Shown here: in pieces, positions 2,487 through 27,210 of the stretch | How the letters are laid out: every line of letters starts with the position of its first letter | How positions within the stretch are numbered: position 1 is the stretch's first letter | The notes under the pieces: generated by a model | The model's database searches: none | Told to the model about the DNA's origin: nothing | Seen by the model: only the letters and a program-made list of their open reading frames with translations | Position numbers and translations under genes: made by a program | IMG/VR virus record: IMGVR_UViG_3300014914_000020 | Location: 1-33,384 of that record | Length of the DNA: 33,384 nucleotides | Source: a virus | Strand: one strand, 5' to 3'

Positions 2487-2782
2487 CAGGACTTCCTCGC
2501 GCGCGGCCTACGGGCCTGGTCAGCCTTCGGGCAGGTCGCGAAGTGAGACGTTCTGCGGACGGTATCGCTCGGCCACTCGTCGCGATCGAAGAGAGTGGGC
2601 GCGATGACGTGCGCGCGGGCGTCGCTGCCAAGCCCGTCGATGACAACCTTGCCGTCGCTGCTGGGCTCAGCGTCGACCGGCATCCAGGACCCAGACGCGG
2701 CCGTGCGGACCCAGACGATGGATTTGCCGCAGTAGGTGCAGCGCTTGACGGCGCAGCAGTTTATCGGCGCGTAGTGGGCCAA
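2486..2782 (-). CDS. small zinc-ribbon-like protein, 98 aa
   Basis: A TTG start gives MAHYAPINCCAVKRCTYCGKSIVWV..., with CxxC at residues 15-18 and a later HFATCPKAD that could supply the other zinc ligands. The pattern 'C-CGK-I-WV...G-WMPVDAEP' resembles small phage and actinobacterial-type zinc-ribbon proteins of unknown role. It is next to the sigma factor gene, so a nucleic-acid contact is plausible but unproven. The C-terminus is basic (ARRPRARKS). Confidence 0.7.
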   Translation of the reverse strand: MAHYAPINCCAVKRCTYCGKSIVWVRTAASGSWMPVDAEPSSDGKVVIDGLGSDARAHVIAPTLFDRDEWPSDTVRRTSHFATCPKADQARRPRARKS

Positions 2783-2815
2783 TCGGTCACTCCAGGGGGG
2801 CCAGCGTTCCGGCGG

Positions 2816-3295
2816 TCAGCCTAGCAGCCGTTCGAGAATCCGTCGACCTCGGTGAGCTCGCATGCGGGCGGCCTCGGGCGTGATGCCCAGGCGCTCGGCG
2901 GCCTGGATCCGGCCAAGCCCCAGGAGCTCCAGCTCGAGCACGGCCCTCGGTGCCGGCGGGAGGTCGCCCAGGGCCTCGGGGACCCTGGCGACCAGCTCGG
3001 CGCGCCCGGCCACGTCCTCGGCCGCGACGAGGTCTTCGAGGACGCCTGCGCCCTGGGCTGCGGCGCGTGCGGCCCTGGGCCTGCCGGCGGCCTCGACGCG
3101 GACGTGCCGCCAGCGGTCGACCAGCACGCCCCAGGCGGCAGTCGTGCCCCAGGCAGGGCCGACGCCGCCGGCGACCAGGAGGGCGCGCGCGGCGACCTCC
3201 TGGGCGATCTCCAGGCAATCCTCGCGCGGCAGGCCGCGGCGTCTGGCAGCTCGGAAGGCGGCGCGGTGCGCGGCGAGGACCTGGCCGTCGCTCAT
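2816..3295 (-). CDS. ECF-like RNA polymerase sigma factor
   Basis: The 159-residue protein has the two-domain plan of a minimal sigma-70 family factor. Residues about 10-66 resemble region 2 (REDCLEIAQEVAARALL, then WGVLVDRWRHVRVEAAG). Residues about 110-158 are a clear region-4 helix-turn-helix: LPPAPRAVLELELLGLGR, then QAAERLGITPEAARMRAHRG and RRILERLL. The middle linker is alanine and arginine rich. The ATG at 3295 follows the stop of the 72-residue gene by 2 nt. Such factors redirect host RNA polymerase to particular promoters; the repeated two-box leaders at 4563, 5234, 5863 and 7236 are candidate targets. Region 2 is weaker than region 4, so a sigma-like DNA-binding protein remains possible. 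Confidence 0.7.
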   Translation of the reverse strand: MSDGQVLAAHRAAFRAARRRGLPREDCLEIAQEVAARALLVAGGVGPAWGTTAAWGVLVDRWRHVRVEAAGRPRAARAAAQGAGVLEDLVAAEDVAGRAELVARVPEALGDLPPAPRAVLELELLGLGRIQAAERLGITPEAARMRAHRGRRILERLLG

Positions 3296-3297
3296 GC

Positions 3298-3516
3298 TCA
3301 CGGCTCGCCCATGGCGGCGCGCGTGGTGTCGATGTAGGTGGCTCGATCCGCCGTGCCGTCCGGGTAGGCCAGCCCGAGGGTGGTGGTCCCGTCGTCGTGG
3401 CGCGTGACGCGCGTGACGGTGAGGGGCCCACCAGCGCTCGCGTCGCGCTCCTGCGCGAGCCCGTAGACCACGTCCCCACGTCGAAGGCTGCGGATGCTCT
3501 TGGTCTTGCCTGCCAC
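3298..3516 (-). CDS. hypothetical protein, 72 aa
   Basis: A GTG start follows AGGAGCGCCACC. The product (MAGKTKSIRSLRRGDVVYGL, then GGPLTVTRVTRHDDGTTTLGL) looks like a small beta-barrel, similar in feel to short SH3-like or KOW-like folds. The family is not recognised. It is immediately upstream of the sigma factor gene with a 2-nt gap and is surely cotranscribed with it. Confidence 0.65.
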   Translation of the reverse strand: MAGKTKSIRSLRRGDVVYGLAQERDASAGGPLTVTRVTRHDDGTTTLGLAYPDGTADRATYIDTTRAAMGEP

Positions 3517-3581
3517 GGTGGCGCTCCTGGGATAGGCCCTCAGTCAATCACGCTTTAGGGCGTGGTCAAGTCGGCCAGCGG

Positions 3582-4562
3582 TCACGCTGCGAGCTTCCGG
3601 CACTTCGAGCGGCGCGCAGCCTGGACCTGGGCGACGTGCTCGCGGACCGACGGGTCGCGCTCGATGAAGCCGCGGTCCTCAGCCCAGACGCGCCAGGAGC
3701 CAGGGCGGCCGTCGGACTTGCGGGTCCGGCGCCAGAGCCCCTCGATGCGCAGGCCGTGCTTGCCCTTGCGGGCGGTGTCCTCGATCTCGATGGCCTTGGC
3801 CAGGAGGTCGGGGTGCTCGTCTTGCAGGCTCTCGAGCTCGCCCTCGGTCATGTTGGGGCAGAAGTAGCAGGAGCTCTTGCGGCAGCCGTCGAAGCCGGCG
3901 GCGCGGACGATGGCCTCGACCTCGTTGCGGTCGATGCCCCAGGCCTGGAGCGGATACCAGAAGGCGAAGCCGCCGACGTGCGCGGGCTTCTTGCAGGCGG
4001 CCTCGCCCTCGAGCGGGGCCTTGCGCTTCATGTCGGCGGGGCCGGCGTTGAAGCCGACCATCTTGACGGGGACGCGGCCAGCGGCGCGGTCGGCGATGAT
4101 GAGCGGGTGCGCCGCGAGGAAGGCATCCATGGGCTCGTGCTTCCACTTGACCGAGCAGCCGCCGCGGCCAAAGGCCTCGCCCGGCAGCGTCTCGTTGCTG
4201 AGCATGTTGCCGATGATGTTGGTGTAGCCCTCGGCGACGCGGACGCGCTTGCCGGTGGCCTCGTCGTCGCGGTAGAGCAGCGAGGCGGGGCCGTACTGGC
4301 GGCCGGTGCCGTGCCGGCTGACTACGGTGACGGCCGGCATGCCCTGCTCGACGAGCCACGCGGAGAAGGCCGCGACGTGAGCGTAGGTCTCGGGGATCTC
4401 GGCGCCGACGTCGGCGAAGAGGATCAGGTCGGGGCGGATGCCGCGCCGGACGCACTCGATGAGGAAGGCCGTCGAGTCGAAGCCGCCGCCGAAGTTGGCG
4501 ATGAGCGTGGCGCCGTCGGCTGGGGCCGTGCCGTGGTCGAAGGCCTGGTAGGTGATGGTCAT
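3582..4562 (-). CDS. PAPS reductase-like PP-loop ATPase with conserved cysteines
   Basis: The 326-residue protein belongs to the adenine nucleotide alpha-hydrolase family related to PAPS reductase. Its PP-loop reads NFGGGFDSTA (residues 23-32), a variant of SGGxDST. It is followed by ILFADVGAEIPETY, the usual strand with an acidic residue. GCSVKWKHEP (135-144) matches the C-x-x-K-x-K-P region. Cys190 and GCRKSSCYFCP (226-236) give five cysteines that could hold a metal or an iron-sulfur cluster. Phage members have no proven role; related enzymes activate substrates with ATP for sulfur transfer (PAPS reductase, DndC, TtcA). It starts downstream of a conserved two-box leader with GGGAGC before the ATG. 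It might serve DNA modification with the nearby C5 methyltransferase, but that is inference. Confidence 0.8.
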   Translation of the reverse strand: MTITYQAFDHGTAPADGATLIANFGGGFDSTAFLIECVRRGIRPDLILFADVGAEIPETYAHVAAFSAWLVEQGMPAVTVVSRHGTGRQYGPASLLYRDDEATGKRVRVAEGYTNIIGNMLSNETLPGEAFGRGGCSVKWKHEPMDAFLAAHPLIIADRAAGRVPVKMVGFNAGPADMKRKAPLEGEAACKKPAHVGGFAFWYPLQAWGIDRNEVEAIVRAAGFDGCRKSSCYFCPNMTEGELESLQDEHPDLLAKAIEIEDTARKGKHGLRIEGLWRRTRKSDGRPGSWRVWAEDRGFIERDPSVREHVAQVQAARRSKCRKLAA

Positions 4563-4618
4563 GGCGTTGCTCCCTTGAGGTAGCAACCCCTTCGGACATC
4601 GGCCGGGGGCCACTTGAG
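4563..4618 (-). promoter_or_regulatory. two-box leader, copy 1 (before PP-loop gene)
   Basis: In coding sense: CTCAAGT, 17 nt, CGAAG, 27 nt, then the ATG at 4562. The last part contains CACC/TACC, CTCAAGGGAGC and AACGCC. The same boxes and spacings precede the genes starting at 5233, 5862 and 7235. The geometry (two boxes 16-17 nt apart, start codon about 27 nt after the second) fits a promoter read by an ECF-type sigma factor, but no transcript start is known. Confidence 0.55.
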
Positions 4619-4638
4619 GCCGGCCCGGGGATTCCGAC

Positions 4639-4860
4639 TCATGAACCGAGCGCGTCCGGAACCTCGAGGACGGCGAAGGCGTGCGGGTGCCGTTGATGGC
4701 GAGGCTGGGCGGCCTCGAGATCGTCGCGCAGGCGGTCGGCGCATGGGCGCTCGGCGAAGGCATCGACGACCTCGACGAGGTCGTGCCCCAGGCCGTGGCG
4801 CGCGGTGTCGCGCAGCGCTCGCACGCGCACGACCAGGAAGCGGGGTTGGGCGTCTCGCAC
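4639..4860 (-). CDS. hypothetical protein, 73 aa
   Basis: A GTG at 4860 lies 4 nt after the previous stop and gives VRDAQPRFLVVRVRALRDTA, then GLGHDLVEVVDAFAERPCAD, a small basic alpha/beta protein. An ATG at 4914 in the same frame would add 18 proline-rich residues overlapping the upstream gene; it has no ribosome binding site, so I prefer the GTG. The gene ends just before the leader of the PP-loop gene. No family recognised. Confidence 0.5.
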   Translation of the reverse strand: MRDAQPRFLVVRVRALRDTARHGLGHDLVEVVDAFAERPCADRLRDDLEAAQPRHQRHPHAFAVLEVPDALGS

Positions 4861-4864
4861 TGGC

Positions 4865-5233
4865 TCAGGCCTCGCTGTCGGCGTCGGGGTGGTCGGGCCA
4901 GCAAGAGGGGTCATTGCAGACGTCGATCTCGGTCACGACCGCGAGCGCCACTGCGAAGGCCTCCTCGACGTTGGCATAGAACGCGGCGCCGTCGGCGGCC
5001 GTCGCGCTGGTGATGACTTCGGGCGCCACAGTCGGGCGGCCGACGGTCGGTGTGTCGTCGACGACCGAGACCGACTTGGCGCTGGTGTCGATCGCGAGGC
5101 GGATGGGGGAGTCGCGGAAGCGGACGACCACGGTGCTCGTGTCGGGGAAGGCGGTGACGGTGGCGCGCCCGACGATGACGGCGGCGTCCTCGTTGAAGGC
5201 GGTCTCGATGGCGTTGATGAGCGGGGTCTTCAT
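4865..5233 (-). CDS. hypothetical protein, 122 aa
   Basis: The ATG at 5233 is preceded by the conserved leader with GGGAGCAACGCC, the same as for the PP-loop gene. The product begins MKTPLINAIETAFNEDAAVIV and continues with beta strands (TSTVVVRFRDSPIRLAIDTS). It ends with a helix and a cysteine-containing tail (VCNDPSCWPDH). No family recognised. The frame is open upstream as far as an ATG at 5437, which would add a membrane segment. Confidence 0.6.
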   Translation of the reverse strand: MKTPLINAIETAFNEDAAVIVGRATVTAFPDTSTVVVRFRDSPIRLAIDTSAKSVSVVDDTPTVGRPTVAPEVITSATAADGAAFYANVEEAFAVALAVVTEIDVCNDPSCWPDHPDADSEA

Positions 5234-5289
5234 GGCGTTGCTCCCTTGGGGTGACACTCTCTTCGGCCACGCCCCCACGGTGACCTGAG
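5234..5289 (-). promoter_or_regulatory. two-box leader, copy 2
   Basis: Coding sense: CTCAGGT, 17 nt, CGAAG, 27 nt, ATG at 5233. The proximal part (CACCCCAAGGGAGCAACGCC) is nearly identical to copy 1. Here the leader lies inside an open frame from the upstream membrane ORF, so it may be translated as well as transcribed from. Confidence 0.55.
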
Positions 5290-5437
5290 TGGTCTCCTGG
5301 AGAATCCACCACGCGACTCCGACAGCAGCCGCCCAGGCGAGCAGTGGCCACGCCCAGGCAAGCAGGTCGAGCAGGGCCTCGAGGGCGACGCGCCACCAGC
5401 GCGGCCGCGGCGGACGGTCTTGGTCTGGGCTTTCCAT
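5234..5437 (-). CDS. membrane-segment ORF in frame with the 4865-5233 gene
   Basis: From an ATG at 5437 (AGGAGG about 13 nt upstream) the frame encodes a charged N-terminus, then WWRVALEALLDLLAWAWPLL and AWAAAVGVAWWIL, long enough for one or two membrane helices. It then reads straight through the leader into the ATG at 5233 with no stop. It is either an N-terminal membrane anchor giving a 190-residue form, or a separate small membrane protein. The hydrophobic stretch and GC3 pattern favour real coding. Confidence 0.45.
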
Positions 5438-5552
5438 GGTGATCGCAGAGCCTCCTGGTCGTGTGCGGGGCGGGGCGTTGATCGGCGGGCGTGCGCGCGT
5501 GTAGCGTCTGGCCGGTGATGCTCCCGCGAGGTTGGTCCCTCGCTTGAGACTC

Positions 5553-5584
5553 AGGCCCGCCCAGGGTTCGCCCCGGGCGGGCCT
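5553..5584. terminator. GC-rich hairpin, possible terminator
   Basis: A perfect 10-bp inverted repeat, AGGCCCGCCC and GGGCGGGCCT, is separated by 12 nt and lies 8 nt after the stop of the 5593-5862 gene. There is no long T-run on the minus strand (the plus strand has GTTTCATTTC), so it may work by stem stability or face the other way. Confidence 0.5.
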
Positions 5585-5592
5585 GTTTCATT

Positions 5593-5862
5593 TCAGACCT
5601 TCCAGCCGTCGGGCAGCCAGGCCTTGCGGTCACTCGTGCTCGGGCGCGGGCGCCTGCCGGCCTTGACCACCGGCCAGTGAAGCCGCAGCCAGCGTTTCGC
5701 GGCCGCGCGCTCGCCCTGGAAGAGGTCGCGCTCGTGCTGCGCGAGGCTCGTGTCGGCGTCCTCGATGAACCACTCGACATCGCCGGAGCGGCTACGGAAG
5801 CGCGTGATCGTGACGGGGCCGACGTTGTGCCGGCTCAGGATGGCGGGGCTGGTGGTGTTCAT
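5593..5862 (-). CDS. hypothetical protein, 89 aa
   Basis: The product is basic, with MNTTSPAILSRHN followed by GPVTITRFRSRSGDVEWFIE and a helix (LAQHERDLFQGERAAAKRWL). It ends in arginine-rich sequence and AWLPDGWKV. The charge suggests a nucleic-acid or nucleoprotein contact. No family recognised. It has a two-box leader upstream and a hairpin downstream, so it may form its own transcript unit. Confidence 0.65.
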   Translation of the reverse strand: MNTTSPAILSRHNVGPVTITRFRSRSGDVEWFIEDADTSLAQHERDLFQGERAAAKRWLRLHWPVVKAGRRPRPSTSDRKAWLPDGWKV

Positions 5863-5918
5863 GGTGGCGCTCCAGGTGAGATAGAAACCTCTTCGTCACG
5901 GCGGCCGACCGACTTGAG
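5863..5918 (-). promoter_or_regulatory. two-box leader, copy 3
   Basis: Coding sense: CTCAAGT, 16 nt, CGAAG, 28 nt, ATG at 5862. The box sequences are the same as in copies 1, 2 and 4, but the ribosome-binding part has diverged (CTGGAGCGCCACC). The conserved distal boxes with a diverged translation site argue that the boxes themselves are selected. Confidence 0.55.
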
Positions 5919-5926
5919 GCGCTGGG

Positions 5927-6109
5927 CTACTTTTCCTCGGGAGGACCGCCGGCGCTGTACGGGTCGACGCCGAGATCCTCCCAGCCCTCGAGGTCGGGGC
6001 AGTCGCACTCGAAGGCGTGCAGGTCGTGCACGCGGCACCACCATTCCCCGCAGACGCACCGGACCCAGGCGGGACCGGGCGGCGCGGGGCTCTGGTCGTG
6101 GTCTGGCAT
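5927..6109 (-). CDS. small Cys/His-rich protein, 60 aa
   Basis: The short product has CVCGEWWCRVHDLHAFECDC at residues 18-37: cysteines 18, 20, 25, 35 and 37 with His28 and His31. This is dense enough for one zinc site. The C-terminus is acidic and proline rich. Family not recognised. The ATG at 6109 is 20 nt downstream of the methyltransferase stop, so it is probably cotranscribed with it. Confidence 0.6.
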   Translation of the reverse strand: MPDHDQSPAPPGPAWVRCVCGEWWCRVHDLHAFECDCPDLEGWEDLGVDPYSAGGPPEEK

Positions 6110-6128
6110 GCCCCCAGGCTACAGGCGC

Positions 6129-7088
6129 TCATGCCGCGATGCGTGAGCGCTCGGGCAGGCATGCCGCTGCGGCCGCGCGCTCGAGCAGCCAGGTCACCAC
6201 CGGCGGGCTGACGCTGTTGCCGATGAGGTGCGTGGCCGTGGTCGCCGACTCCGGCAGGGCGTAGCCCTCGGGGAGCCCCTGAATCGCGACCTGCTCGGGC
6301 ACGGTGAGCATGCGCATTTCGTCGCCACGGTGGATCGCCCAGCGGCCCTTGGTGGTCAGCGTTCCGCAGGGGCGGTCCAGGCTGCGGCCGGTCCGCCCGG
6401 AGCCGCTGCCGTAGAACGGCGCGAGGAAGACGTCGCCGACGTTGCGCCTGCCGGCCTCGTGGCGCGAGATCGTCGACGCCGCGCGCCCGGGTTTGTAGAC
6501 CTTCGACCAGCTGCCCGAGTCGAGGTCGAGCACCGATCTCACCGAAACGTGCGCCGCGTCGGGCTGGCCCAGGTAGAGCGGCGCCGCGCTCTTGGCGCAG
6601 ACGATGAAGACGCGCTTGCGATTCTGCGGGACGCCCGCGTCCGCCGCGTCGATGACGTGCGGCGCGAGGCTGTAGCCCAGGGCGCCCATGGCCGCAGACC
6701 ACGCCCCGTAGAGCCGCCAGTCGAGGAACTCCGGCACGTTCTCGATGATGACGAGCTCGGGGTCGTGGTACTCAGCGGCCGACACGACGGCCCAGGCGGT
6801 CGAGCGGCTCGCGTCGTGCTGGGGGCGGTCGACCCCGCGGGCCTTGGAGTGGCCCTGGCAGCAGGGCGACGCCAGCAGGACGTCATGGTCGGGGACCAGC
6901 GACCAGTCCTGCTGGTGCAGGTCCTGGCAGGAGTGGAGCGTGCCGGGGTGGTTCCGCTCGTGGGTCTCGACGGCGGCCTGCCAGTGGTTCGCAGCGAAGA
7001 CGACGTCCAGGCCAGCGGCCTCGGCGCCGCAGGTGAACCCGCCGGCTCCGGCGAAGAGATCCACGGCGCGCTTCGTGGTGGCAGTCAT
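6129..7088 (-). CDS. C5-cytosine DNA methyltransferase
   Basis: All the main motifs of the family are present in order: motif I DLFAGAGGF (residues 10-18, SAM binding), motif IV SPCCQGHSKA with catalytic Cys76 (74-83) and motif VI ENVPEF (116-121). QNRKRVF (155-161), MRMLTVPEQVAIQGLPEGY (258-276, motif IX-like) and IGNSVSPPV (289-297, motif X) follow. The target-recognition region lies at about 165-257 and is short. At 319 residues it is a normal stand-alone phage enzyme. It should protect phage DNA from host restriction by making 5-methylcytosine; no cognate nuclease is next to it. The start follows the 47-residue gene by 3 nt. Confidence 0.95.
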   Translation of the reverse strand: MTATTKRAVDLFAGAGGFTCGAEAAGLDVVFAANHWQAAVETHERNHPGTLHSCQDLHQQDWSLVPDHDVLLASPCCQGHSKARGVDRPQHDASRSTAWAVVSAAEYHDPELVIIENVPEFLDWRLYGAWSAAMGALGYSLAPHVIDAADAGVPQNRKRVFIVCAKSAAPLYLGQPDAAHVSVRSVLDLDSGSWSKVYKPGRAASTISRHEAGRRNVGDVFLAPFYGSGSGRTGRSLDRPCGTLTTKGRWAIHRGDEMRMLTVPEQVAIQGLPEGYALPESATTATHLIGNSVSPPVVTWLLERAAAAACLPERSRIAA

Positions 7089-7091
7089 CGC

Positions 7092-7235
7092 TCAGCCCTC
7101 CCGGCTCAGGAAGCGAGCGACCGGGCCGAAGACCAGCTTGCCGTCGAGGAAGGTGAAGTCGGCGACCAGCGTGGCGAAGATGGCGAGCGCGGTGCAGAGC
7201 GCCTGGGCGTTGGTGAAGAGGTCGGCGGTGTTCAT
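7092..7235 (-). CDS. small hydrophobic protein, 47 aa
   Basis: The product reads MNTADLFTNAQALCTALAIF then ATLVADFTFLDGKLVFGPVA and a short basic end. Residues about 12-27 are hydrophobic enough for one weak membrane helix. It is preceded by GGAGCATCGCC and the two-box leader copy 4, and followed closely by the DNA methyltransferase gene, so it may be the first gene of that unit. Function unknown. Confidence 0.55.
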   Translation of the reverse strand: MNTADLFTNAQALCTALAIFATLVADFTFLDGKLVFGPVARFLSREG

Positions 7236-7290
7236 GGCGATGCTCCGTTGAGGTGCCAGACTCTTCGGAACGAGCCAGGGGGAACATGAG
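7236..7290 (-). promoter_or_regulatory. two-box leader, copy 4
   Basis: Coding sense: CTCATGT, 16 nt, CGAAG, 27 nt, ATG at 7235. It lies just downstream of an intrinsic terminator (7302-7349), exactly where a new promoter would be expected. This is the best contextual evidence that the leader is a promoter. Confidence 0.6.
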
Positions 7291-7301
7291 CCCGCCACGA
7301 G

Positions 7302-7349
7302 AAAAGGCGCGAGCTCGCCCAGGACTCCCAGCCCGGACGAGCTCGCGCC
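7302..7349 (-). terminator. rho-independent terminator
   Basis: On the minus strand GGCGCGAGCTCG and CGAGCTCGCGCC form a perfect 12-bp stem around a 20-nt loop and are followed by TTTTCTC. It comes 34 nt after the stop of the 7384-7824 gene and before leader copy 4. Confidence 0.75.
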
Positions 7350-7383
7350 CGTCGTGTTCAGTCCCTTCGCGGAGCCCCTGCCA

Positions 7384-7824
7384 TCAAGGGCTGTCAGGGC
7401 CCTCGTAGTCTCCGCACTGCGCCTCCGGAGCGATCTCGCGAGCGACCTGGTCCTCGGCCGGCGTGGCGTTGCCGAGTGTGCCGCTCGCGCTGGAGCTGCC
7501 GGCCGCGCGAGCTGGGCCCTCGTCCGTGTCCCAGTCCTCGAGCGCTGTCTCGGCAACGATCGCGGCGTGCAGCCTGCCGTCGTAGGTGAAGCCCTCGAGG
7601 TTGGCGAGGCCGCGCGCCGTGACCTCGGGCGGATCGCTGCGCTGCAACCCACGCAAGACGAGCGCCGCGTGCGCGGAGACATGGGCGCGCGCCAGCTCGA
7701 GCCCCACGCGGTCGCCGCTGCTCGTGAAGTAGTCGCCGGCCAGGTGCGCGAGCGCCCGGTCGGAGTGGTCTCCGCTGAGGAGCTTGCGGAACTCGGAGCC
7801 CTCGGGTGAATCGAAGATGGTCAT
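7384..7824 (-). CDS. hypothetical protein, 146 aa
   Basis: The ATG at 7824 has an ideal AGGAGG seven nt upstream. The first 60 residues are helical (FRKLLSGDHSDRALAHLAGD, LELARAHVSAHAALVLRGLQ) and suggest a small helical bundle; the remainder is acidic and low complexity. No family recognised. The frame is open upstream to 8067, where a two-helix membrane segment is encoded. It ends at an intrinsic terminator. Confidence 0.65.
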   Translation of the reverse strand: MTIFDSPEGSEFRKLLSGDHSDRALAHLAGDYFTSSGDRVGLELARAHVSAHAALVLRGLQRSDPPEVTARGLANLEGFTYDGRLHAAIVAETALEDWDTDEGPARAAGSSSASGTLGNATPAEDQVAREIAPEAQCGDYEGPDSP

Positions 7825-8067
7825 GGTCGACCTCCTGGTTGGTGGTGACGCCGGCCGCATTGCGCAGCCGATCGGTTGATGTTTGGTCCAGACCGACCGC
7901 ACTGCCAGGCCGACGAGGAGCCCCGCGTATGAGACGAAGGCGAGCCACGCGACGACCGCTCGCCCGGTCTGTGACCAGACGCACAGAAGGATAACCAGCC
8001 AGAGCAGGCATCCCAGGAGCGGCCAGCTGGGCAGCGAGCGAACGGGCGACGTCCTATCGAGTGGCAT
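7825..8067 (-). CDS. two-helix membrane ORF in frame with the 7384-7824 gene
   Basis: From the ATG at 8067 the frame encodes a basic N-terminus and two hydrophobic segments, LLGCLLWLVILLCVW and VVAWLAFVSYAGLLVGLAV, about residues 17-31 and 38-56. It then continues with no stop into MTIFDSPEG at 7824. Two short helices with little else recall a small holin-like or other phage inner-membrane protein, but no family match can be claimed. Whether it is made as a separate protein or as an anchor of the downstream product is open. Confidence 0.45.
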
Positions 8068-8629
8068 CGTAGACCTCACGCAACACGACCGCGCGAACCT
8101 CCGACCAAGCGGCCTGGTCGTACCAGGTCCAGTAGGTCGGGCCGCGGGGTAGCTCGACGTCCAGCCTCACGGGCTCAACGTACGGGCCGTGCCCGCCAGC
8201 CACGATGACCACGCCGTCGACGAGCTCGAGGTGCCAGGGGATGTCAGGTGCGGGCGCGGTGCACGCCCCGAGGAACACGGCGAGCATGAGCACCAGCCCG
8301 CGCATTGCTTCGACCCTGCGCAATTCGTCGAGCCTGCGCAATGCGTCGAGCGCGCGACCTTTCGTCTCAGCGTACCGCGTCCGCAAGCGAAACCCGCGGC
8401 AGGCGAAGCACGCGAAGCAGACCCACCGGATCCGAAGCAATCTGAGCGTCTTGCCGACTGGCGCGTAGACGCGAGCGTCGGGTTCGCCGACAGCATAGGA
8501 GCCACTGCCGGCGATGTCGTCGTAGAAGACCTTGACCTCGTATCCCATGCCGCAGCACTTCGAGCAGACCTGAAAGCCTAGATAGCCGATGGCGGTCTGG
8601 GGCGGGTTGGTCTCAAGCAGGAGCTTCAC
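8054..8629 (-). CDS. Cys-rich protein continuous with a lipoprotein-like segment, 191 aa
   Basis: A GTG at 8629 overlaps the previous stop (GTGA). Residues 1-80 carry two cysteine clusters, VCSKCC (22-26) and VCFACFACRGF (71-77), consistent with a zinc-binding fold. A hexapeptide-like repeat (LDALRR, LDELRR, VEAMRG) then leads into MRGLVLMLAVFLGAC at residue 109. That is a complete lipoprotein signal with an LGAC lipobox, and the last 83 residues would be a good stand-alone lipoprotein from the ATG at 8305. Either two genes share one frame with internal initiation or a fusion has occurred. No family is recognised for either part. Confidence 0.55.
   Translation of the reverse strand: MKLLLETNPPQTAIGYLGFQVCSKCCGMGYEVKVFYDDIAGSGSYAVGEPDARVYAPVGKTLRLLRIRWVCFACFACRGFRLRTRYAETKGRALDALRRLDELRRVEAMRGLVLMLAVFLGACTAPAPDIPWHLELVDGVVIVAGGHGPYVEPVRLDVELPRGPTYWTWYDQAAWSEVRAVVLREVYDATR
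8316..8351. repeat. 18-bp tandem repeat, two copies
   Basis: CTGCGCAATTCGTCGAGC (8316-8333) is followed directly by a copy differing at one base (8334-8351). A third, more diverged unit precedes it. In the minus frame it encodes the hexapeptides between the Cys-rich and lipoprotein segments, so it may mark the joint between the two. Confidence 0.8.
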
Positions 8630-8880
8630 CACGACGGCTCGTCCGACTGCGGGATGGCCCTCGTGAAACTCGGCAGGATGCTCTGGCCGCCGTCCTCGTC
8701 GGTCGAGACGAGCGCCAAGATGAAGAAGACGTCGCGCCCCTCCCTCACGGCAAGGCGCAGCAGCTGGCCGAGAACGGCGTGGTCGTCCCGAGTCACGGTG
8801 AGCAGCGGCCCATCCTCGCGGGCCAGGTGCACAACGTTCTCTTCGGTGCCAATCGTGACTTTGATGATGGTCGGTCGCAT
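8626..8880 (-). CDS. hypothetical protein, 84 aa
   Basis: The ATG start lies 8 nt after the resolvase gene. The product (MRPTIIKVTIGTEENVVHLA, LLTVTRDDHAVLGQLLRLAV, REGRDVFFILALVSTDEDGG) alternates strands and helices and looks like a small globular protein. Unrecognised. Its stop overlaps the GTG of the next gene. Confidence 0.6.
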   Translation of the reverse strand: MRPTIIKVTIGTEENVVHLAREDGPLLTVTRDDHAVLGQLLRLAVREGRDVFFILALVSTDEDGGQSILPSFTRAIPQSDEPSW

Positions 8881-8888
8881 GCCTCAGC

Positions 8889-9407
8889 CTATCCCACCCT
8901 GCGGACGCGGCAAGCGACGCCGATCGGCGGCAGCCCCAAGACCACGCGAACGTGGGGCTCCTCGCCGCGGGCGCACCACCAAGACTCGACCGCCTTGACG
9001 GCGACGCGCTTGTCGTCATCGAGCACGCCCGACTTCTCGATCGCGTCCAGGCAGGCCTTGAGCACGTTGTCACCGTCCGGCTTCTGGTCTCGGAGGATGC
9101 GCCCGTCGGCCTCAGCCTTGTGCTCGAGGACCTTGGGGCGGCTGAGCACGGCGCAGACGTGGACAACGCACGGCTCGCGGAGCACCCGCTCCCCGTACAG
9201 CCACGCCGCCCTGATCTCCCACGCCGCCCACTTCTCCCACGGGTCGGACTTCCTCCCTGGGTAGTGCCTGGGCTTGCCCGTGCGCGGGTCGCGCCCCCCG
9301 GTGCGGTGGCGCTCCTTCGCGACGGGGTCGCCCGGCAGCATGACGTCGAGCATCGGCGTCATGCACACCAGGGCGACCTTGCCGATGGTCAGGAGGCCAT
9401 CGGTCAC
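8889..9407 (-). CDS. rusA: RusA-family Holliday junction resolvase
   Basis: The 172-residue product carries the RusA signature KPDGDNVLKACLDAIEKSG (109-127) followed by VLDDDKRV (128-135), which supplies the catalytic aspartates. The N-terminal PGDPVAKERHR matches the family's basic 'G-P-x-x-K-x-R' start. The annotated GTG overlaps the upstream stop (GTGA); an ATG at 9362 (residue 16) would give the more usual family length. RusA cuts four-way DNA junctions during recombination or before packaging. It fits with the YqaJ exonuclease and annealing protein on the other strand. Confidence 0.85.
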   Translation of the reverse strand: MTDGLLTIGKVALVCMTPMLDVMLPGDPVAKERHRTGGRDPRTGKPRHYPGRKSDPWEKWAAWEIRAAWLYGERVLREPCVVHVCAVLSRPKVLEHKAEADGRILRDQKPDGDNVLKACLDAIEKSGVLDDDKRVAVKAVESWWCARGEEPHVRVVLGLPPIGVACRVRRVG

Positions 9408-9988
9408 TCGAGGCCGCCTTCGCCGTCGTATGAGCCCGGCGGCGGGGGCTCTCCTGCGTCGATCGCAGCGGCGTCAGCCTGGGGGGGCCTCGGGTCGTCG
9501 CGCACAAGCGGCAGCTGTCTCTCGCTCGCCGTGAGCGCGCGGCGAGCAATGATCTCGCCGGTATCGGTGCGGACCGTCAGCGCCTCGCCCTTGTCGTGGT
9601 GCGCCTGGAGCTCGCACTCGACCGGCCTGGTGTCGCTGCGGTTGCGGACCAGGCGGGCCAGCTTGCCGATGCGCGCCGTGATCTCGGCCTCGTGGGCCTT
9701 GAGGTCGTCTCTGACCTGCTTGACCTGCTTGGCGTGCTCGGAGTGCTCGCCGAGCTCGCCGAGCTCGGCGAGCTCGCCGTGCGCAGCGCCCAGGCTCTCG
9801 GAGGCCTGGCGCCACTCTTCGTCGGAGATCGCGACGATGAGTCCGCGGGTCTCCCGCCCCAGGATCGTCAGCGCCTGCGCGCTCGGTGTCGCCTTGCCGG
9901 ACCTCGCCGAGCGCCCCGCGGTCGTCGGCGTCGCGTTTCCTGCGAGCGCCCCTGCCTTCGCCTTCTTCGCTGCGGCCTTCTTGGCCAT
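9404..9988 (-). CDS. hypothetical protein with coiled-coil centre, 194 aa
   Basis: The N-terminus is lysine/alanine rich and basic (MAKKAAAKKAKAGA). A long helix follows at about 58-120 (ASESLGAAHGELAELGELGE, HAKQVKQVRDDLKAHEAEIT). The last third has a strand-rich motif, CELQAHHDKGEALTVRTDTG then IIARRALTASERQLPL, which I recognise as common in phage proteins of unknown role. The disordered end is proline/glycine rich. The basic start suggests DNA contact. It is coupled to the resolvase gene by GTGA and follows a strong hairpin. Confidence 0.7.
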   Translation of the reverse strand: MAKKAAAKKAKAGALAGNATPTTAGRSARSGKATPSAQALTILGRETRGLIVAISDEEWRQASESLGAAHGELAELGELGEHSEHAKQVKQVRDDLKAHEAEITARIGKLARLVRNRSDTRPVECELQAHHDKGEALTVRTDTGEIIARRALTASERQLPLVRDDPRPPQADAAAIDAGEPPPPGSYDGEGGLE

Positions 9989-17345: not shown

Positions 17346-17765
17346 ATGGCCAAGCGCAAGAAGGCGGACGACACGGCGCACGACTGGCGGCCGGCGCCCT
17401 ACAGGCCGCACTGGCATGCCGACTTTTGGGGAGACTCCCGCGTCCTCAACATGACGCTCGAGGAGGTCGGCTGCTACGTCCGCCTCCTCGACATGCACTG
17501 GGTCAACGGCGCGCGGGGCATACCTGTGCGCCGGGACCGGCTGCTCAAGGTGCTACCGGCGCTCAGCGACGACGACGCGCTCGACAACGTGCTCGCGTGC
17601 TTCACGTCGGATGGTGCGCCGGCCGGCAGGCTGGTCCAGAAGCGATGCCTTGAGGAGATCGCGAAGGCCCTCGTGCGCTTCACGAAGGCGCGCGCAGCGG
17701 CTCAGGCCCGGCACCAGGGGCGCGAGCAGCCGGCTCCGAAGCGCGCTCGCAGCCGCAAGCGCTGA
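17346..17765 (+). CDS. DUF1376 (YdaU-like) replication protein
   Basis: The domain at about residues 19-105 reads YRPHWHADFWGDSRVLNMTL, EEVGCYVRLLDMHWVNGARG, then RLLKVLPALSDDDALDNVLA. These match the DUF1376 pattern 'Yf-w---Df--dt--lt--E-GaY--LL---w---G-lp'. Proteins with this domain are usually replication initiators or replisome organisers of phages and prophages, often with a longer C-terminus. Here the protein is only 139 residues and ends in a basic tail. It is a candidate partner for the iterons at 14421-14506. Confidence 0.75.
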   Translation: MAKRKKADDTAHDWRPAPYRPHWHADFWGDSRVLNMTLEEVGCYVRLLDMHWVNGARGIPVRRDRLLKVLPALSDDDALDNVLACFTSDGAPAGRLVQKRCLEEIAKALVRFTKARAAAQARHQGREQPAPKRARSRKR

Positions 17766-17988
17766 CGCCGTCGGCGCGGTCCAGCCGGCGGCCGTCGCGC
17801 GCGACCCCGATCAAGAGGTCGCGTGCGGCCTCGACCATGGTGGCGATCTCGTCATAGACGACCTCGTTGCCCAGGGCGGCCTCGATGATCGAGCCGTCGC
17901 CTGGCTCGAGGATCGCGACGACGCGCTCTAGAGCGTCGCGGATGACCGGGTGCACGAGGTCGGGACGTGGCTGACGTGTCGCTGGCAT
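17680..17988 (-). CDS. possible antisense hypothetical protein, 102 aa
   Basis: In the plus-strand operon, a 400-bp stretch with no good plus-strand gene is covered by a minus-strand frame. It has an ATG at 17988 with AGAAAGG upstream. Residues 10-70 (PDLVHPVIRDALERVVAILE, SIIEAALGNEVVYDEIATMV) look like a real helical domain; the tail is low complexity and overlaps the end of the DUF1376 gene. Strand switch and overlap lower my confidence. Confidence 0.4.
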   Translation of the reverse strand: MPATRQPRPDLVHPVIRDALERVVAILEPGDGSIIEAALGNEVVYDEIATMVEAARDLLIGVARDGRRLDRADGVSACGCERASEPAARAPGAGPEPLRAPS

Positions 17989-18164
17989 GGCATGGCCTTT
18001 CTGCTGGATCGGGGCTCGGACAGCCCCCCTCCTCGGCATCGCATGGGGCCGACTTGACGGAATCCGGATCCGGGGGGATGCTCAAGCCGGACTCAGCGCG
18101 GGGCGTTGGTGATGGCGGCGACGCCTCGCGCTCCTCACGGGCCCACCAACGGAACGCGACACCC

Positions 18165-18920: not shown

Positions 18921-19452
18921 CGGGATGACGAGCAAGGCCATGCGCGATGGCCAGCAGGATGCCAGGGACGCGCTCTGCTCGATGCTCTGCCGCTTGTCGG
19001 ACGGGCATCGCCGCAAGTTTCGGCGCATGTACGCTAGCAACGCGGACTCGATGGACATGCCCCTAGCCCACGTCGTAAGTGAGTTGACCGCCGACAGGCT
19101 CGACCGGGCTCTCGATCAAGCCGAGCGCTCACTCGTCAAGCTAGAGGCGCGAATGCCTGAGCCCAGCGCGAAGGCCGCGAAGTGGGAAGCGCGACATTCT
19201 GAATCGAACACTCCGGAAACTCCGGACAGTCGCGACATCGCGCCGGCAGGCCGCAGATGCGATCAGGAAGCGGATCAACCGAGCGCCCGGGGCACCAGCT
19301 TCCAGCCCATGAACCCACGGGCACCCAAACGTTCGGCTTGGAACCAGCGCCCGAAGAGCGCCTCCCACTCGTCGAGGCCCCAGGCGCATTGGTATCCCTT
19401 CGGGCTCTTGGTGTCCTTGTCGGCCTTCTTCCAGCACGCGACCAGCAGGTAG
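18913..19452 (+). CDS. hypothetical protein, up to 179 aa
   Basis: The ATG at 18913 overlaps the previous stop by 8 bp. The first 100 residues are helical and convincing (DGQQDARDALCSMLCRLSDG, HVVSELTADRLDRALDQAER). After the KWEARH repeat at about residue 95 the sequence becomes serine/proline rich, and the last 178 bp run antisense into the 3' end of the ParB-domain gene, so that part may not be functional. Family unknown. Confidence 0.5.
   Translation: MRDGMTSKAMRDGQQDARDALCSMLCRLSDGHRRKFRRMYASNADSMDMPLAHVVSELTADRLDRALDQAERSLVKLEARMPEPSAKAAKWEARHSESNTPETPDSRDIAPAGRRCDQEADQPSARGTSFQPMNPRAPKRSAWNQRPKSASHSSRPQAHWYPFGLLVSLSAFFQHATSR
19181..19197. repeat. 17-bp direct repeat, copy 2
   Basis: Exact second copy of AGTGGGAAGCGCGACAT (first at 18898-18914). 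Downstream of it the coding character changes, which suggests a duplication or recombination joint. Confidence 0.8.
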
Positions 19453-20366
19453 CCCCGCGGCTTGAGCAGGCCGCGCATCGTGAGCAGCGCCTCGACCCGC
19501 TGGTGCTCGAGCGGGAGGACGTTGAGGACGTAGTTGCAGGTCACCACGTCCCAGGCCCGCGTCAGCAGCCCGTAATCGGGGTCATACGCCGGATCGAAGC
19601 GCGCGAGGCCGTGCAGAAGGCCGGCGCCGTAATCGAGCACGTCGCCCTTGAGCAGCCGTGAGCGCTGGTACGCATTCATGGGCGCGCTGTCGCCGCTGCG
19701 GGCGATGCTGGTCCGGTAGCCGGCCAGGGTCTCGACGACGGCGCGCTCCTCGTCGCCGAAGCCGTCCAGGAGGCGCGTGGGATCCGCTGCGGCCTCGTGC
19801 TTGCCGGCGGCCCGGTCCTGCTTGGCCTGGAGCTCGGCGAGCTCTGCCGGCGTCCAGGCGAGCCCCTCGAGGTCTCCCTGGGCCCGCTCGATCGCGGCCG
19901 CCTGGTCGAGCACGGCCTGGGCATCCCAGCCGCCGAGCTCGCCGGAGCGGTTGTCGGCCAGGGCGCGGCCGGTGGCGGCGACGTCGTCCTCGTCGACCAC
20001 GACCGCGGCGATGTGGGTCCAGCCGAGCTCGACCGCGACCTGGTGCATGCCGTTCCCGATCTTGATGACCATGCCCTGGCGCTGGACGACTGCCGGCCGG
20101 TGCTGCCCGTACTTGGCCAGGCTGGCCCGGATCGCGTCGAGGTTGGCCTTGTCGTGCGTTCTCGCGTTCGTCGGGTCCTGGACCAGCTCGCCGAGCGGCT
20201 TCAGGAGCCCGGCCAGGTCGGGGCTCGCAATAACTGCAATCACTCCATCGGGGAGCGCGACGGTTTCACGTGAAACGCCGGGCGCGCGCCTGCGCCGCTT
20301 GACCGCCTTGCTGCGGGGGGCCCGCTTCCGAGCGGCCTTCTTCTTCGGCGTGGCCTTGGCTGGCAT
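19275..20366 (-). CDS. ParB-like domain fused to a methyltransferase-like domain
   Basis: The ATG at 20366 has GGAG six nt upstream. The first 30 residues are lysine/arginine rich and probably bind DNA. A ParB/Srx-like N domain covers about 56-145: LGELVQDPTNARTHDKANLD, LAKYGQHRPAVVQ and GNGMHQVAVELGW, the last being a degenerate form of the GERRxRA nucleotide box. No ParB helix-turn-helix follows. A linker leads to a class I SAM-methyltransferase-like domain (240-363) with GDVLDYGAG as motif I, AYDPDY, then WDVVTCNYVLNVLP and LLKPRGYLLVACW. That half resembles the DNA phosphorothioation-associated putative methyltransferases, with a short loop after motif I. Catalysis is unproven. It stands alone between convergent genes and the tail terminator. 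Confidence 0.7.
   Translation of the reverse strand: MPAKATPKKKAARKRAPRSKAVKRRRRAPGVSRETVALPDGVIAVIASPDLAGLLKPLGELVQDPTNARTHDKANLDAIRASLAKYGQHRPAVVQRQGMVIKIGNGMHQVAVELGWTHIAAVVVDEDDVAATGRALADNRSGELGGWDAQAVLDQAAAIERAQGDLEGLAWTPAELAELQAKQDRAAGKHEAAADPTRLLDGFGDEERAVVETLAGYRTSIARSGDSAPMNAYQRSRLLKGDVLDYGAGLLHGLARFDPAYDPDYGLLTRAWDVVTCNYVLNVLPLEHQRVEALLTMRGLLKPRGYLLVACWKKADKDTKSPKGYQCAWGLDEWEALFGRWFQAERLGARGFMGWKLVPRALG
20263..20276. promoter_or_regulatory. parS core palindrome
   Basis: GTTTCACGTGAAAC is the exact 14-bp core of the bacterial chromosomal centromere site TGTTTCACGTGAAACA; only the outermost base on each side differs (G and G). It covers codons 31-35 (VSRET) of the ParB-domain gene, the same peptide that parS gives inside rsmG (gidB) of many alphaproteobacteria. 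By base count alone an exact 14-mer is expected about once per 270 Mb. Confidence 0.85.
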
Positions 20367-24010: not shown

Positions 24011-24459
24011 TACGCGAGCTCCGGGTGCCGCATGCGCTTGAGGAAGCGCTGCCGCCAGCGCGTATCCCACTCCTGGTCGATGACGTGGCCGATGAGCGAC
24101 GACGTGTGCAGGAGGCCGCGGCCGACGCCGGTGCTCTCGATGCCGACGTGCTGCGCGATGCTCTTCGACCGCCAGTAGAAGAGGATCACGTCGCCGGCCT
24201 GGGCGTCGTCGTCGTCGACGACCTCGAAGGTGCGGCGCAGGTCGGCCTCGAGCGACTGGCCGTCGCCCCAGGGCCCATAGCCCTTCGGGTCGTAGATCGG
24301 GAGCCCGAGCTTCTTGCAGGCGTAGGCGACGGGCCCGCCGCAGTCCATGCCGGCGCCCAGGCATCGCCCTTGGTGGATGAACGGCGTTCGCAGGCACTCG
24401 AGCGCCGCCTCGACGAAGGCCGTGCGAAGCTCGACGACGGTGCCGGCCGTTGTCGTCAT
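24010..24459 (-). CDS. NlpC/P60 family peptidase, tail-associated
   Basis: The ATG at 24459 overlaps the DUF2163 stop (ATGA). The 149-residue protein carries MDCGGPVAYACKKLG with the catalytic Cys40, QHVGI with His104, and a third polar residue near LLHTS (His118). 'FIHQGRC-GAGMDCGG' before it is the usual family lead-in. Such enzymes cut peptide bonds in peptidoglycan and travel with the tail to open the cell wall at injection. Position between DUF2163 and the hub gene is the same as in gene transfer agents. Confidence 0.9.
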   Translation of the reverse strand: MTTTAGTVVELRTAFVEAALECLRTPFIHQGRCLGAGMDCGGPVAYACKKLGLPIYDPKGYGPWGDGQSLEADLRRTFEVVDDDDAQAGDVILFYWRSKSIAQHVGIESTGVGRGLLHTSSLIGHVIDQEWDTRWRQRFLKRMRHPELA

Positions 24460-25337
24460 GGTCCCTGGAGCGCCTTGTCGGAGCCGGGCATCGTTGGGTA
24501 GCCCTGGAAGTTGACCAGGTTGGCAAACTTCGACGTGCAGATTGTCGCCGTCTTGTTGCAGCCTGCGATGACCGTAAAGGCGTCGCCGATCTGAATGTCG
24601 TTCGGCGTTGGCAGGTAGAGCGTGAGCGTGTAGCTGCCGCCGCCGCCGTCGGTGCTCTTCTGGACCTCGCTCACGACGCCGGCGTTGCTGCCCCCCGTCC
24701 ACTCGACCGTGCCCTCGGTCCAGAAGTCATCGCCCAGGCCGCCAGCCGGCGCGCCGCTCAGGACGAAGACCTGGCGCGGCGAGCTGGGCGAGACAGACTG
24801 GGCGAGCTCGGCAGCGAAGGTGAAGGGGCCCAGGGGCGCGGCGCACCGGCCGTCGCCCAGGTCGGCATCGCAGCGCCTCGAATGCCTGCGGCCGACGCGC
24901 TGCGTGAGCCGCTTGCCAACCCCGCTCATGTCGGCTTTCCAGTCCTCGCCGTTGAAGCGCAGCGACTCCATGGTGTACGCGGTCGTGACGATCGCGCCGG
25001 CCCACGGGAAGCGCCAGTTGACGACGAACTCGCTCACGGCCGCGTTTCGGAAGAGGCCCGCGCGCAGGTCGTCCGACGTGATCGTCGTGCCGGTGACGCC
25101 GTCGACCTCGAGGTTGAGATCCTCGAGGCCGTTGGGCATCTCGAGCGAGCTCGGGTCGATGCCCTGAACCGGCGTGTAGGTGTAGGTCGCGAAGTCCTCC
25201 TCGCGGAACGGCAGCGGGCGGTCGTGCACTGCGAACCGGAAGACCTGGCCGTCTCGCCTGGTGATGCGCCAAAGGCTCGCCAGGCGCAGCGAACGGCCGC
25301 GCATGAGAGACAGTCCGCCTGGCGTGATGGCAAGCAC
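24456..25337 (-). CDS. DUF2163 / phage BR0599-like tail protein
   Basis: A GTG at 25337 shares one base with the previous stop (TAGTG). The 293-residue protein ends with the family hallmarks: RRCDADLGDGRCAAPLGPFT (about 155-174), then GCNKTATICTSKFANLVNFQ and GYPTMPGSD. The conserved cysteines lie in both parts. The first half has LRLASLWRITRRDG and LFRNAAVSEFVVNWRFPWAG as in DUF2163. It is a tail tip or baseplate component of GTA-like tails. Confidence 0.85.
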   Translation of the reverse strand: MLAITPGGLSLMRGRSLRLASLWRITRRDGQVFRFAVHDRPLPFREEDFATYTYTPVQGIDPSSLEMPNGLEDLNLEVDGVTGTTITSDDLRAGLFRNAAVSEFVVNWRFPWAGAIVTTAYTMESLRFNGEDWKADMSGVGKRLTQRVGRRHSRRCDADLGDGRCAAPLGPFTFAAELAQSVSPSSPRQVFVLSGAPAGGLGDDFWTEGTVEWTGGSNAGVVSEVQKSTDGGGGSYTLTLYLPTPNDIQIGDAFTVIAGCNKTATICTSKFANLVNFQGYPTMPGSDKALQGP

Positions 25338-25696
25338 TAGAACGCCCCTCCCGAGCTGAATGACACAGGCTGCGCAGCGGCCCAGACGCCGGCGACGGTC
25401 GCGTTGTCCTCGAGCGCCACGACGACCATGTCGCCGATGGCGATGGTCCGGAGCAGCGTCCCGTCGCGGTCGTGCAGGAGCAGCGGGTCGCTCGAGGCCG
25501 AGTCGTTGAATACGTAATGCTTGGGCGCGCCGACCCAGCGGTGCGCGGTGGCGTCGCCCAGGCGGACGACCGCGGCCGCGCCGGTTGTCTCGACCGTGAT
25601 GACGCGGTCACGCCTGGGCCAGAGCTGCATGACCTCGGCCGCGCCGAGCTCGGCGTTGCGGGCGTCGCCGTAGTGGTCTCGCTCGAGGACGGTCAT
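25337..25696 (-). CDS. small tail protein, 119 aa
   Basis: The ATG at 25696 comes two nt after the DUF2460 stop; an in-frame GTG at 25714 would add six residues. The product is beta rich (TVLERDHYGDARNAELGAAE, RRDRVITVETTGAAAVVRLG, DGTLLRTIAIGDMVVVALED) and ends AAAQPVSFSSGGAF. A similar small gene is not always present between DUF2460 and DUF2163 in GTA-like clusters; its exact role is unknown. Confidence 0.65.
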   Translation of the reverse strand: MTVLERDHYGDARNAELGAAEVMQLWPRRDRVITVETTGAAAVVRLGDATAHRWVGAPKHYVFNDSASSDPLLLHDRDGTLLRTIAIGDMVVVALEDNATVAGVWAAAQPVSFSSGGAF

Positions 25697-25698
25697 GG

Positions 25699-27210
25699 TC
25701 AGAAGGCGAGCCACTGCCGGAGGGATGGGGCGTCGGTGACGCTCGAGTCGAAGTAGCTAGTGCCGTTGCCCGTGCGAATCTTGACCCGCTTGCTTCCTCC
25801 TCCGAACCCGGCTTGCCAGTGATAGTGCGCGACAAAGCGATCCGTTGCGCTTGGCGAGCTCCAGGCCGTAGCCGGGACAGCGTAGACGTAGGTGCCGGCA
25901 ACGATGAACGCCTGCGAAGGCGACCCGCCTCCCGATTGCAGGACGGTCTCGCCATCCGCGCTGACGCGATACATCGCTGCGAGCGAAGACGCAACGCCCG
26001 ACCCGAACACATCCTCTTTTACGTCGATCGTCAGCGTGTGCCCGGCGTCGTTCCACTGGTTCGTGCCTGGCTCGCCGACAGGCGTAAACCATCCGACATT
26101 GGCCGACGACCCCGCCCCCAGGATCTCAGTGTATTCGCCCTCCGCAACGGTAACGGTACTGAGCAAGAGGTCATCATTGAACGTGCCGTTCCACGGCGGG
26201 GGCACGGTCGTCACGCCGCTGCTCGCGTCGGTGAGGTAGAAGCGCTCGATGGCGGTGTCGTTGGTCTGGCTGCCGAGGACGATGGTGATGCCGTCGTCGG
26301 TGCCGATGGTGGCGACCAGGTTGGCGGCGTGGTCGCGAACCTCGATCGTGTTGACCAGCGAATGATTGAAGATGAACCAGTGCGGGCCGCCGTGGGGGAT
26401 GTCCTGCCCGCTGGCCTTGGTCGGGTCTGGCAGCAGCAGGTCGGTCACGCCGTCGGTGGCGCGCACCCGCACGGAGACGTGGGCCCGGGAGAGCTGAACG
26501 TCGGCGCCGCTGAGGTCCTCGATGTCGAGGTTCCCGCCGGCGTAGGTGTCTTCGAAGGCGACGAGCTCGTCTCGGATCTCGACGACGGGGATCTGGCCGA
26601 TGTTGCCGTTCTCGAAGCCGTCGATGGTCGCCTGGAGCCCTCGGTCGGCCTCCTCGCCAAACCGGCACGGCCAGTGCATCTCAAAGCCGGCGGTGATCGT
26701 CACGCCGCCGGCAGGGGCAACCGCGAACGTGATGACTCCGGTGGTCCCGTCGATCGTGTAGTCGACGCCCTCAGTCTGCGCGGCAGCGTCGAGCGCGACC
26801 AGCACGGTGCTGGCAACCGGCTTGGTGATGGTCGACACGCCCTCGGAAGGGCCCTCGGGGTAGGTCTTGCGGAGCTGGTATTGCAGCTCGACGCCGTCGC
26901 CCTGCTCGATGACCTGGTCAAGCGCGGTGGGCGCGTCGCGGCCGTTGAGCGCGCTGGTGAAGTCGAGCGGGTCTTTGTAGCGGAAGCCGAAGAGCGCGCC
27001 GGTGCGGGCCTGGAAGAAGGTCTGCAAGAGCGCCAGGTTGTCGAGGGTCTTCAGCCCCCAGGCAACGTCGTAGACGCGGCGCGGAGACTCCCAGCGGCCG
27101 ACTCTCTCCTCGTGCCCTGAGCTCTGCTCGACGATGCCGGTGCTGAACCCGGGCCCGCCACGAGAGCCGTAGGAGATGATGGTCGGGAAGAGGGTCTCAT
27201 GTACGGCCAT
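25699..27210 (-). CDS. DUF2460 tail protein with C-terminal extension
   Basis: The first 220 residues match the DUF2460/TIGR02217 family: FPTIISYGSRGGPGFSTGIV, YDVAWGLKTLDNLALLQTFF, GFRYKDPLDFTS and GFEMHWPCRFGEEADRGLQA, followed by PVVEIR. The family usually ends about there, near 210 residues. Here about 280 further residues follow, rich in strands and glycine (for example WFIFNHSLVNTIEVRDHAAN), probably one or two beta domains exposed on the tail that could bind the host surface. The protein corresponds to the distal tail component next to the tape measure. Confidence 0.8.
   Translation of the reverse strand: MAVHETLFPTIISYGSRGGPGFSTGIVEQSSGHEERVGRWESPRRVYDVAWGLKTLDNLALLQTFFQARTGALFGFRYKDPLDFTSALNGRDAPTALDQVIEQGDGVELQYQLRKTYPEGPSEGVSTITKPVASTVLVALDAAAQTEGVDYTIDGTTGVITFAVAPAGGVTITAGFEMHWPCRFGEEADRGLQATIDGFENGNIGQIPVVEIRDELVAFEDTYAGGNLDIEDLSGADVQLSRAHVSVRVRATDGVTDLLLPDPTKASGQDIPHGGPHWFIFNHSLVNTIEVRDHAANLVATIGTDDGITIVLGSQTNDTAIERFYLTDASSGVTTVPPPWNGTFNDDLLLSTVTVAEGEYTEILGAGSSANVGWFTPVGEPGTNQWNDAGHTLTIDVKEDVFGSGVASSLAAMYRVSADGETVLQSGGGSPSQAFIVAGTYVYAVPATAWSSPSATDRFVAHYHWQAGFGGGSKRVKIRTGNGTSYFDSSVTDAPSLRQWLAF

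Follow-up and report, generated by a model that had tools for sequence, protein, structure and literature searches.

The window analysed here comprises positions 1 to 33,384 of IMG/VR virus record IMGVR_UViG_3300014914_000020, and the element in question is a repeated two-box leader that stands ahead of four of its genes. The pattern CTCAnGT-N16/17-CGAAG occurs in four copies (A to D), all on the minus strand, at 4618-4590, 5289-5261, 5918-5891 and 7290-7263. The gap from CTCAnGT to CGAAG is 17, 17, 16 and 16 nt, and the distance from CGAAG to ATG is 27, 27, 28 and 27 nt, respectively; the left ends of the leaders (4563, 5234, 5863 and 7236) are the single base preceding each ATG. A previous sequence-only reading had described four copies at these places, 16-17 nt between boxes and 27-28 nt to the ATG, with no strand named; both the copies and the distances were recovered as described. 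Dinucleotide shuffles give an expectation of 0.13 exact two-box matches per window (Poisson P for four or more, about 1e-5).

All features of the locus lie on the minus strand. Spacers of 12 or 13 are counted between the two 9-mers (-35 and -10), and those of 16 or 17 from CTCAnGT to CGAAG. Putative promoter and leader A (4563-4618) consists of -35 CTCAAGTGG (4618-4610), a spacer of 13 and -10 TCCGAAGGG (4596-4588), with a predicted start at the A at 4581, and precedes a PP-loop (PAPS reductase-like) gene (3582-4562; PHROG 424, E 1.5e-24), the protein of which has relatives in viral contigs at 41-44% identity. Leader B (5234-5289; -35 CTCAGGTCA at 5289-5281, spacer 13, -10 GCCGAAGAG at 5267-5259, predicted start A 5252) precedes a 122-aa gene of no assigned function (4865-5233), the frame of which is open upstream to 5437. 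Leader C (5863-5918; -35 CTCAAGTCG at 5918-5910, spacer 12, -10 GACGAAGAG at 5897-5889, predicted start A 5882) precedes an 89-aa gene, also of no assigned function (5593-5862). Leader D (7236-7290; -35 CTCATGTTC at 7290-7282, spacer 12, -10 TCCGAAGAG at 7269-7261, predicted start A 7254) precedes a small membrane-like gene of 47 aa (7092-7235) and a C5 cytosine DNA methyltransferase gene (6129-7088). The intrinsic terminator that had been noticed beside one copy is present at 7350-7305, with 19 pairs, directly upstream of D, a placement expected of a promoter that opens a new transcription unit. No sigma-70 type promoter was detected within window positions 2500-9500. A fifth, weaker site was seen at 18058 (minus), GTCAAGTCG-N12-GCCGAGGAG, just ahead of an in-frame ATG in the open reading frame (ORF) 17680-18039.

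A sister phage is represented by a 64-kb contig in a Myxococcota genome bin (G118), which encodes terminase, portal, tail and replication proteins, including a tape measure protein related to that of the window. It carries 13 weight-matrix sites on one strand with spacers of 12-13, almost every one of which leads through a short leader to an ATG; the 6.5-Mb genome as a whole has nine exact pattern matches, and eight of them fall on this contig. Partial synteny with the window extends over the promoter, the small membrane gene and the methyltransferase gene, with one additional small ORF between them in the G118 phage; the small gene there, which likewise follows a two-box site, looks similar by eye, and the methyltransferases are 62% identical. 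The G118 phage has two C5 methyltransferase genes (locus L260, 11592-12503 and 14086-14994; 62% and 45% identical to the window enzyme), each of which lies behind its own two-box site, after small ORFs. From box 2 to the ATG, too, the window leaders are like those of the G118 phage, and both sets have a Shine-Dalgarno sequence at a fixed distance. An A occupies position 16, counted from the start of the -10 9-mer, in 16 of the 17 aligned leaders from both phages, usually inside TACC or TAACC. Transcripts made with sigma-28 typically begin about 7 nt past the -10 element, and starts are predicted at that distance near 4581, 5252, 5882 and 7254 on the minus strand.

Three scans of viral-contig DNA were made. 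Most matches were coding or chance, and the intergenic ones alone were retained, because an excess at gap 14 is partly an artefact of in-frame LKS...AEE coding. Two-box copies recur in G001 (IMGVR_UViG_3300038701_001323; three intergenic copies), G009 (IMGVR_UViG_3300023283_000263; seven intergenic copies) and G002 (IMGVR_UViG_3300037478_000708; about five copies, together with a PP-loop relative), with one copy apiece in G008 and G010; G002 and the single-site contigs are the weaker cases. The search of relatives that had been recommended for the motif was thereby productive, with 3, about 5, 7 and 13 copies in other phage contigs. Good sites are confined to one strand in G001, G009 and the G118 phage, and G002 has one on the opposite strand. 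A further site (L295) was rejected as a leader, as it falls at the end of an ORF. Five phage contigs gave 32 sites, against near-zero matches in shuffled sequence; 20 of them have 12 bp between the 9-mers, 11 have 13 and one has 11. Across all phages box 1 is better written as CTCAAGTCC and box 2 as (G/T)CCGAAGAG. The boxes and their spacing are unchanged in G001 and G009 while the stretch from box 2 to the ATG is unlike that of the window, which argues for a promoter rather than a translational leader. In 80 phage loci whose terminases share 47-67% identity with the G118 phage enzyme there was no excess of sites (4 versus 6 in shuffles), so that the motif does not simply travel with that terminase lineage and the trait is scattered.

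The boxes resemble the sigma-28 consensus, TAAAGTTT-n11-GCCGATAA (PMC2859248). The same phages contain the box 2 variants GCCGATAAG, GCCGACAAG and GCCGATGAG and the box 1 variant CTAAAGTTC, which match this consensus apart from one or two additional bases in the spacer and so indicate a promoter of the sigma-28 type. The 32 phage sites match it at a mean of 5.0 of 8 positions in the -35 and 5.6 of 8 in the -10 element; the -10 core CCGA is invariant or nearly so, and individual sites carry CTAAAGTT or GCCGATAA. Shared with sigma-28 (group 3) promoters are the -35 (T)CAAGT or TAAAGT, the -10 GCCGA(A/T)(G/A)A and a short fixed spacer. The phage sites differ from them in their mostly 12-13 bp spacer instead of 11, in a preferred -10 of GCCGAAGAG rather than GCCGATAA, and in their location in phages. 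On these comparisons the promoter type is probably FliA/WhiG (group 3) rather than extracytoplasmic function (ECF; group 4).

The same boxes head motility genes in bacterial chromosomes. A bacterial genome scan found exact boxes at intergenic, promoter-like sites in Bdellovibrionota, for example ahead of a Flp-like pilin gene (named by eye). In the phylum of a Myxococcota metagenome-assembled genome, to which G118 also belongs, CTCAAGT-N14/16-CCGAWRAG was matched in 51 of 284 genomes. Five of about 30 inspected Myxococcota loci have the boxes ahead of flagellar genes: fliD, fliN and flaG are preceded by an exact CCGAAGAG box, and CCGATGAG or CCGATAAG precedes a rod gene and a flgM-like gene, the latter with a Pfam score slightly under the cut-off. 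If about 1% of genes are assumed to be flagellar, the chance of five among some 30 loci is about 2e-5. The G118 chromosome, which encodes a FliA/WhiG sigma factor (280 bits), has CTCAAGTCC-N12-GCCGATAG ahead of a helix-turn-helix (HTH) gene and a pilM operon (PilM, E 1e-85). The same promoter, with CCGAAGAG, precedes the same HTH gene in two further genomes of that class, in one of which (G269) pilM was seen, and two more genomes have the boxes ahead of one orthologous gene; all of these sites have the phage-like spacer of 12. The combination of sigma-28-like promoter and HTH gene was found at L409 (12353-12730), L433 and L434, all from one Myxococcota class, with pilM next in G118 and G269. 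The HTH-pilM sites are a candidate FliA/WhiG sigma regulon in type IV pilus control. S-motility relies on type IV pili, and SigF is a FliA-like sigma factor. SigF of Myxococcus xanthus regulates S-motility genes (PMC9548883). Bacterial sites with CCGAAGAG often have a spacer of 12 and those with CCGATAAG or CCGATGAG a spacer of 11, the exceptions being the flagellar fliD, fliN and flaG. Two or three FliA/WhiG genes are encoded in each of several genomes, a finding that together with this split suggests that two paralogues may prefer different spacers.

The four leaders are thus best explained, with a probability of roughly three in four, as promoters of sigma-28 type that a FliA/WhiG-family sigma factor encoded by the host recognizes. 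The element would consist of a -35 CTCAAGTCC, 12-13 bp between the 9-mers and a -10 GCCGAAGAG, with transcription beginning about 7 nt further on at the conserved A and yielding a short leader with a Shine-Dalgarno sequence. Its reader would be a host sigma factor like those with sites ahead of flagellar and pilus genes in Myxococcota and Bdellovibrionota, and the units of the methyltransferase, PP-loop, ECF sigma and small genes would be coupled to the motility programme of the host. Transcription by the host holoenzyme, the start site, the host of the window and any benefit to the phage are what we infer from DNA comparisons.

Several points weigh against this explanation. The phage spacer of 12-13 is 1-2 bp above the n11 of the Escherichia coli consensus, and the Myxococcota flagellar sites mostly have a spacer of 11, with 12 at the pilM-type sites. 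Since the G118 bin might have taken up its phage contig in error, the link to a host is suggestive at most; few exact phage-type sites lie on the G118 chromosome itself. In addition, the window has its own ECF-like sigma gene (2816-3295, minus), downstream of promoter A as for an autoregulated ECF factor.

That gene is the basis of the first alternative, an autoregulated phage regulon in which the product of 2816-3295 reads the boxes. The sequence-only reading had taken the protein as sigma-70-like, and it holds up as a real though diverged ECF-like sigma factor: the 159-aa product matches Pfam Sigma70_r4_2 (E 1.7e-7) and, over residues 11-156 and under the curated cut-off, TIGR02937 (E 3.2e-6), and its best solved relative is the ECF sigma factor CnrH. 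Boxes 16-17 bp apart would suit ECF promoters too. The gene follows the PP-loop gene and ORF 3298-3516 in the same direction, and no minus-strand terminator was found between promoter A and the sigma gene, so that promoter A could drive it. However, no sigma domain above cut-off was found by six-frame searches of G001, G002, G008, G009 and G010, some of which are fragments, nor among 81 called proteins of the G118 phage, apart from one HTH protein with a sub-cut-off region-4 score; no viral relative of the window protein was found either. An ECF sigma factor encoded alongside the promoters was thus seen in the window and not in the other phages that bear them. This, together with the position of the gene downstream of one copy, makes the ECF protein more likely a product of the promoter-A unit than the reader of the boxes, and perhaps the next step of a cascade. 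Moreover, the variation in the -10 element follows sigma-28, and flagellar and pil genes in bacteria stand behind the same boxes. An autoregulated ECF regulon is accordingly unlikely. Of the phage regulon as first proposed, a repeated alternative-sigma promoter class before the PP-loop, methyltransferase and small genes very likely stands, and its reading by the phage's own ECF factor is probably wrong.

It is highly improbable that the leader works mainly in translation or on the mRNA, in the manner of start-associated sequences, with the upstream box incidental. The likeness of the window and G118 leaders from box 2 to the ATG and their fixed Shine-Dalgarno distance would fit such a role, but the upstream box at its fixed spacing is the most constant part of the element and is found again in G001 and G009 ahead of other leaders, and in bacteria the same boxes are followed by leaders of quite another kind. 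The start-associated sequence (SAS) of cluster K mycobacteriophages spans 13 bp and lies 3-7 bp from the start codon; the extended SAS (ESAS) is an imperfect 17-bp inverted repeat (PMC3203893). Like SAS and ESAS, the present sites are short repeats before many non-structural start codons, mostly in one orientation and with a Shine-Dalgarno-like part. Unlike them, they consist of two dissimilar boxes with a fixed gap of 16-17 nt, with the constant parts 27-59 nt ahead of the ATG and no inverted repeats. Hardly more credible are operators for a phage or host DNA-binding regulator, for which repeats at gene starts would be typical and the G118 phage encodes two HTH proteins, one of them ArsR-type: the two boxes are not mutual inverted repeats, a test for a dyad operator in the leaders gave no symmetry above re-pairing controls, and the likeness to sigma-28 promoters would be coincidence.

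Phages usually rely on the housekeeping sigma factor or supply their own. Several phages here appear dependent, with many promoter copies, on an alternative sigma factor of host motility. No phage regulon on FliA/WhiG promoters was found in searches of an open-access literature library. As in phage regulons with ECF or other alternative sigma factors, an alternative promoter class and a sigma-like gene are present in one virus; unlike in those regulons, the other phages with the promoters yielded no comparable sigma factor, and that of the window is of the ECF and not the FliA type. For CtrA-controlled phages of Alphaproteobacteria, lytic deferment has been proposed (PMC9437464). As there, a host regulator of motility appendages would here govern genes of several unrelated phages; CtrA, however, is a response regulator with tested binding, whereas the present case is a sigma-factor promoter class in other hosts, proposed from sequence analogy. 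It is possible, though we lean slightly against it, that scattered high-GC phages, one of them linked to Myxococcota, let the host sigma factor for type IV pili or flagella control as many as 13 of their genes, mostly non-structural, so that phage gene expression, DNA modification and, in the window, a secondary ECF sigma factor would follow the motility state of the host, a sigma-factor form of lytic deferment. If host control of this kind is true, infection would be tied to host behaviour, phages that infect Myxococcota and related bacteria could be sought by these boxes, and the FliA/WhiG (SigF-like) regulons of such hosts would gain a predicted promoter consensus.

Elsewhere in the window, 24456-27210 (minus) holds a gene transfer agent-like tail module with a distal tail protein of the Rcc01695 family (TIGR02217, E 4e-56). 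Its minor tail protein is 30-38% identical to proteins of alphaproteobacterial phages, a likeness too low for the host to be identifiable from the tail genes; G009 has distant relatives of both proteins. The protein encoded at 19275-20366 (minus) is a fusion of a ParB-like N-terminal part (PHROG 620, E 8.5e-26) to a C-terminal part with a weak match, below cut-off, to the DNA phosphorothioation-associated methyltransferase TIGR04096 (E 5e-4). Together with the PP-loop gene, this fusion raises the question of a DNA modification. The G118 phage contig encodes a sulfatase-family protein (L262, 5645-6958; PF00884, E 1e-38, the best among the proteins scanned) among its structural genes.

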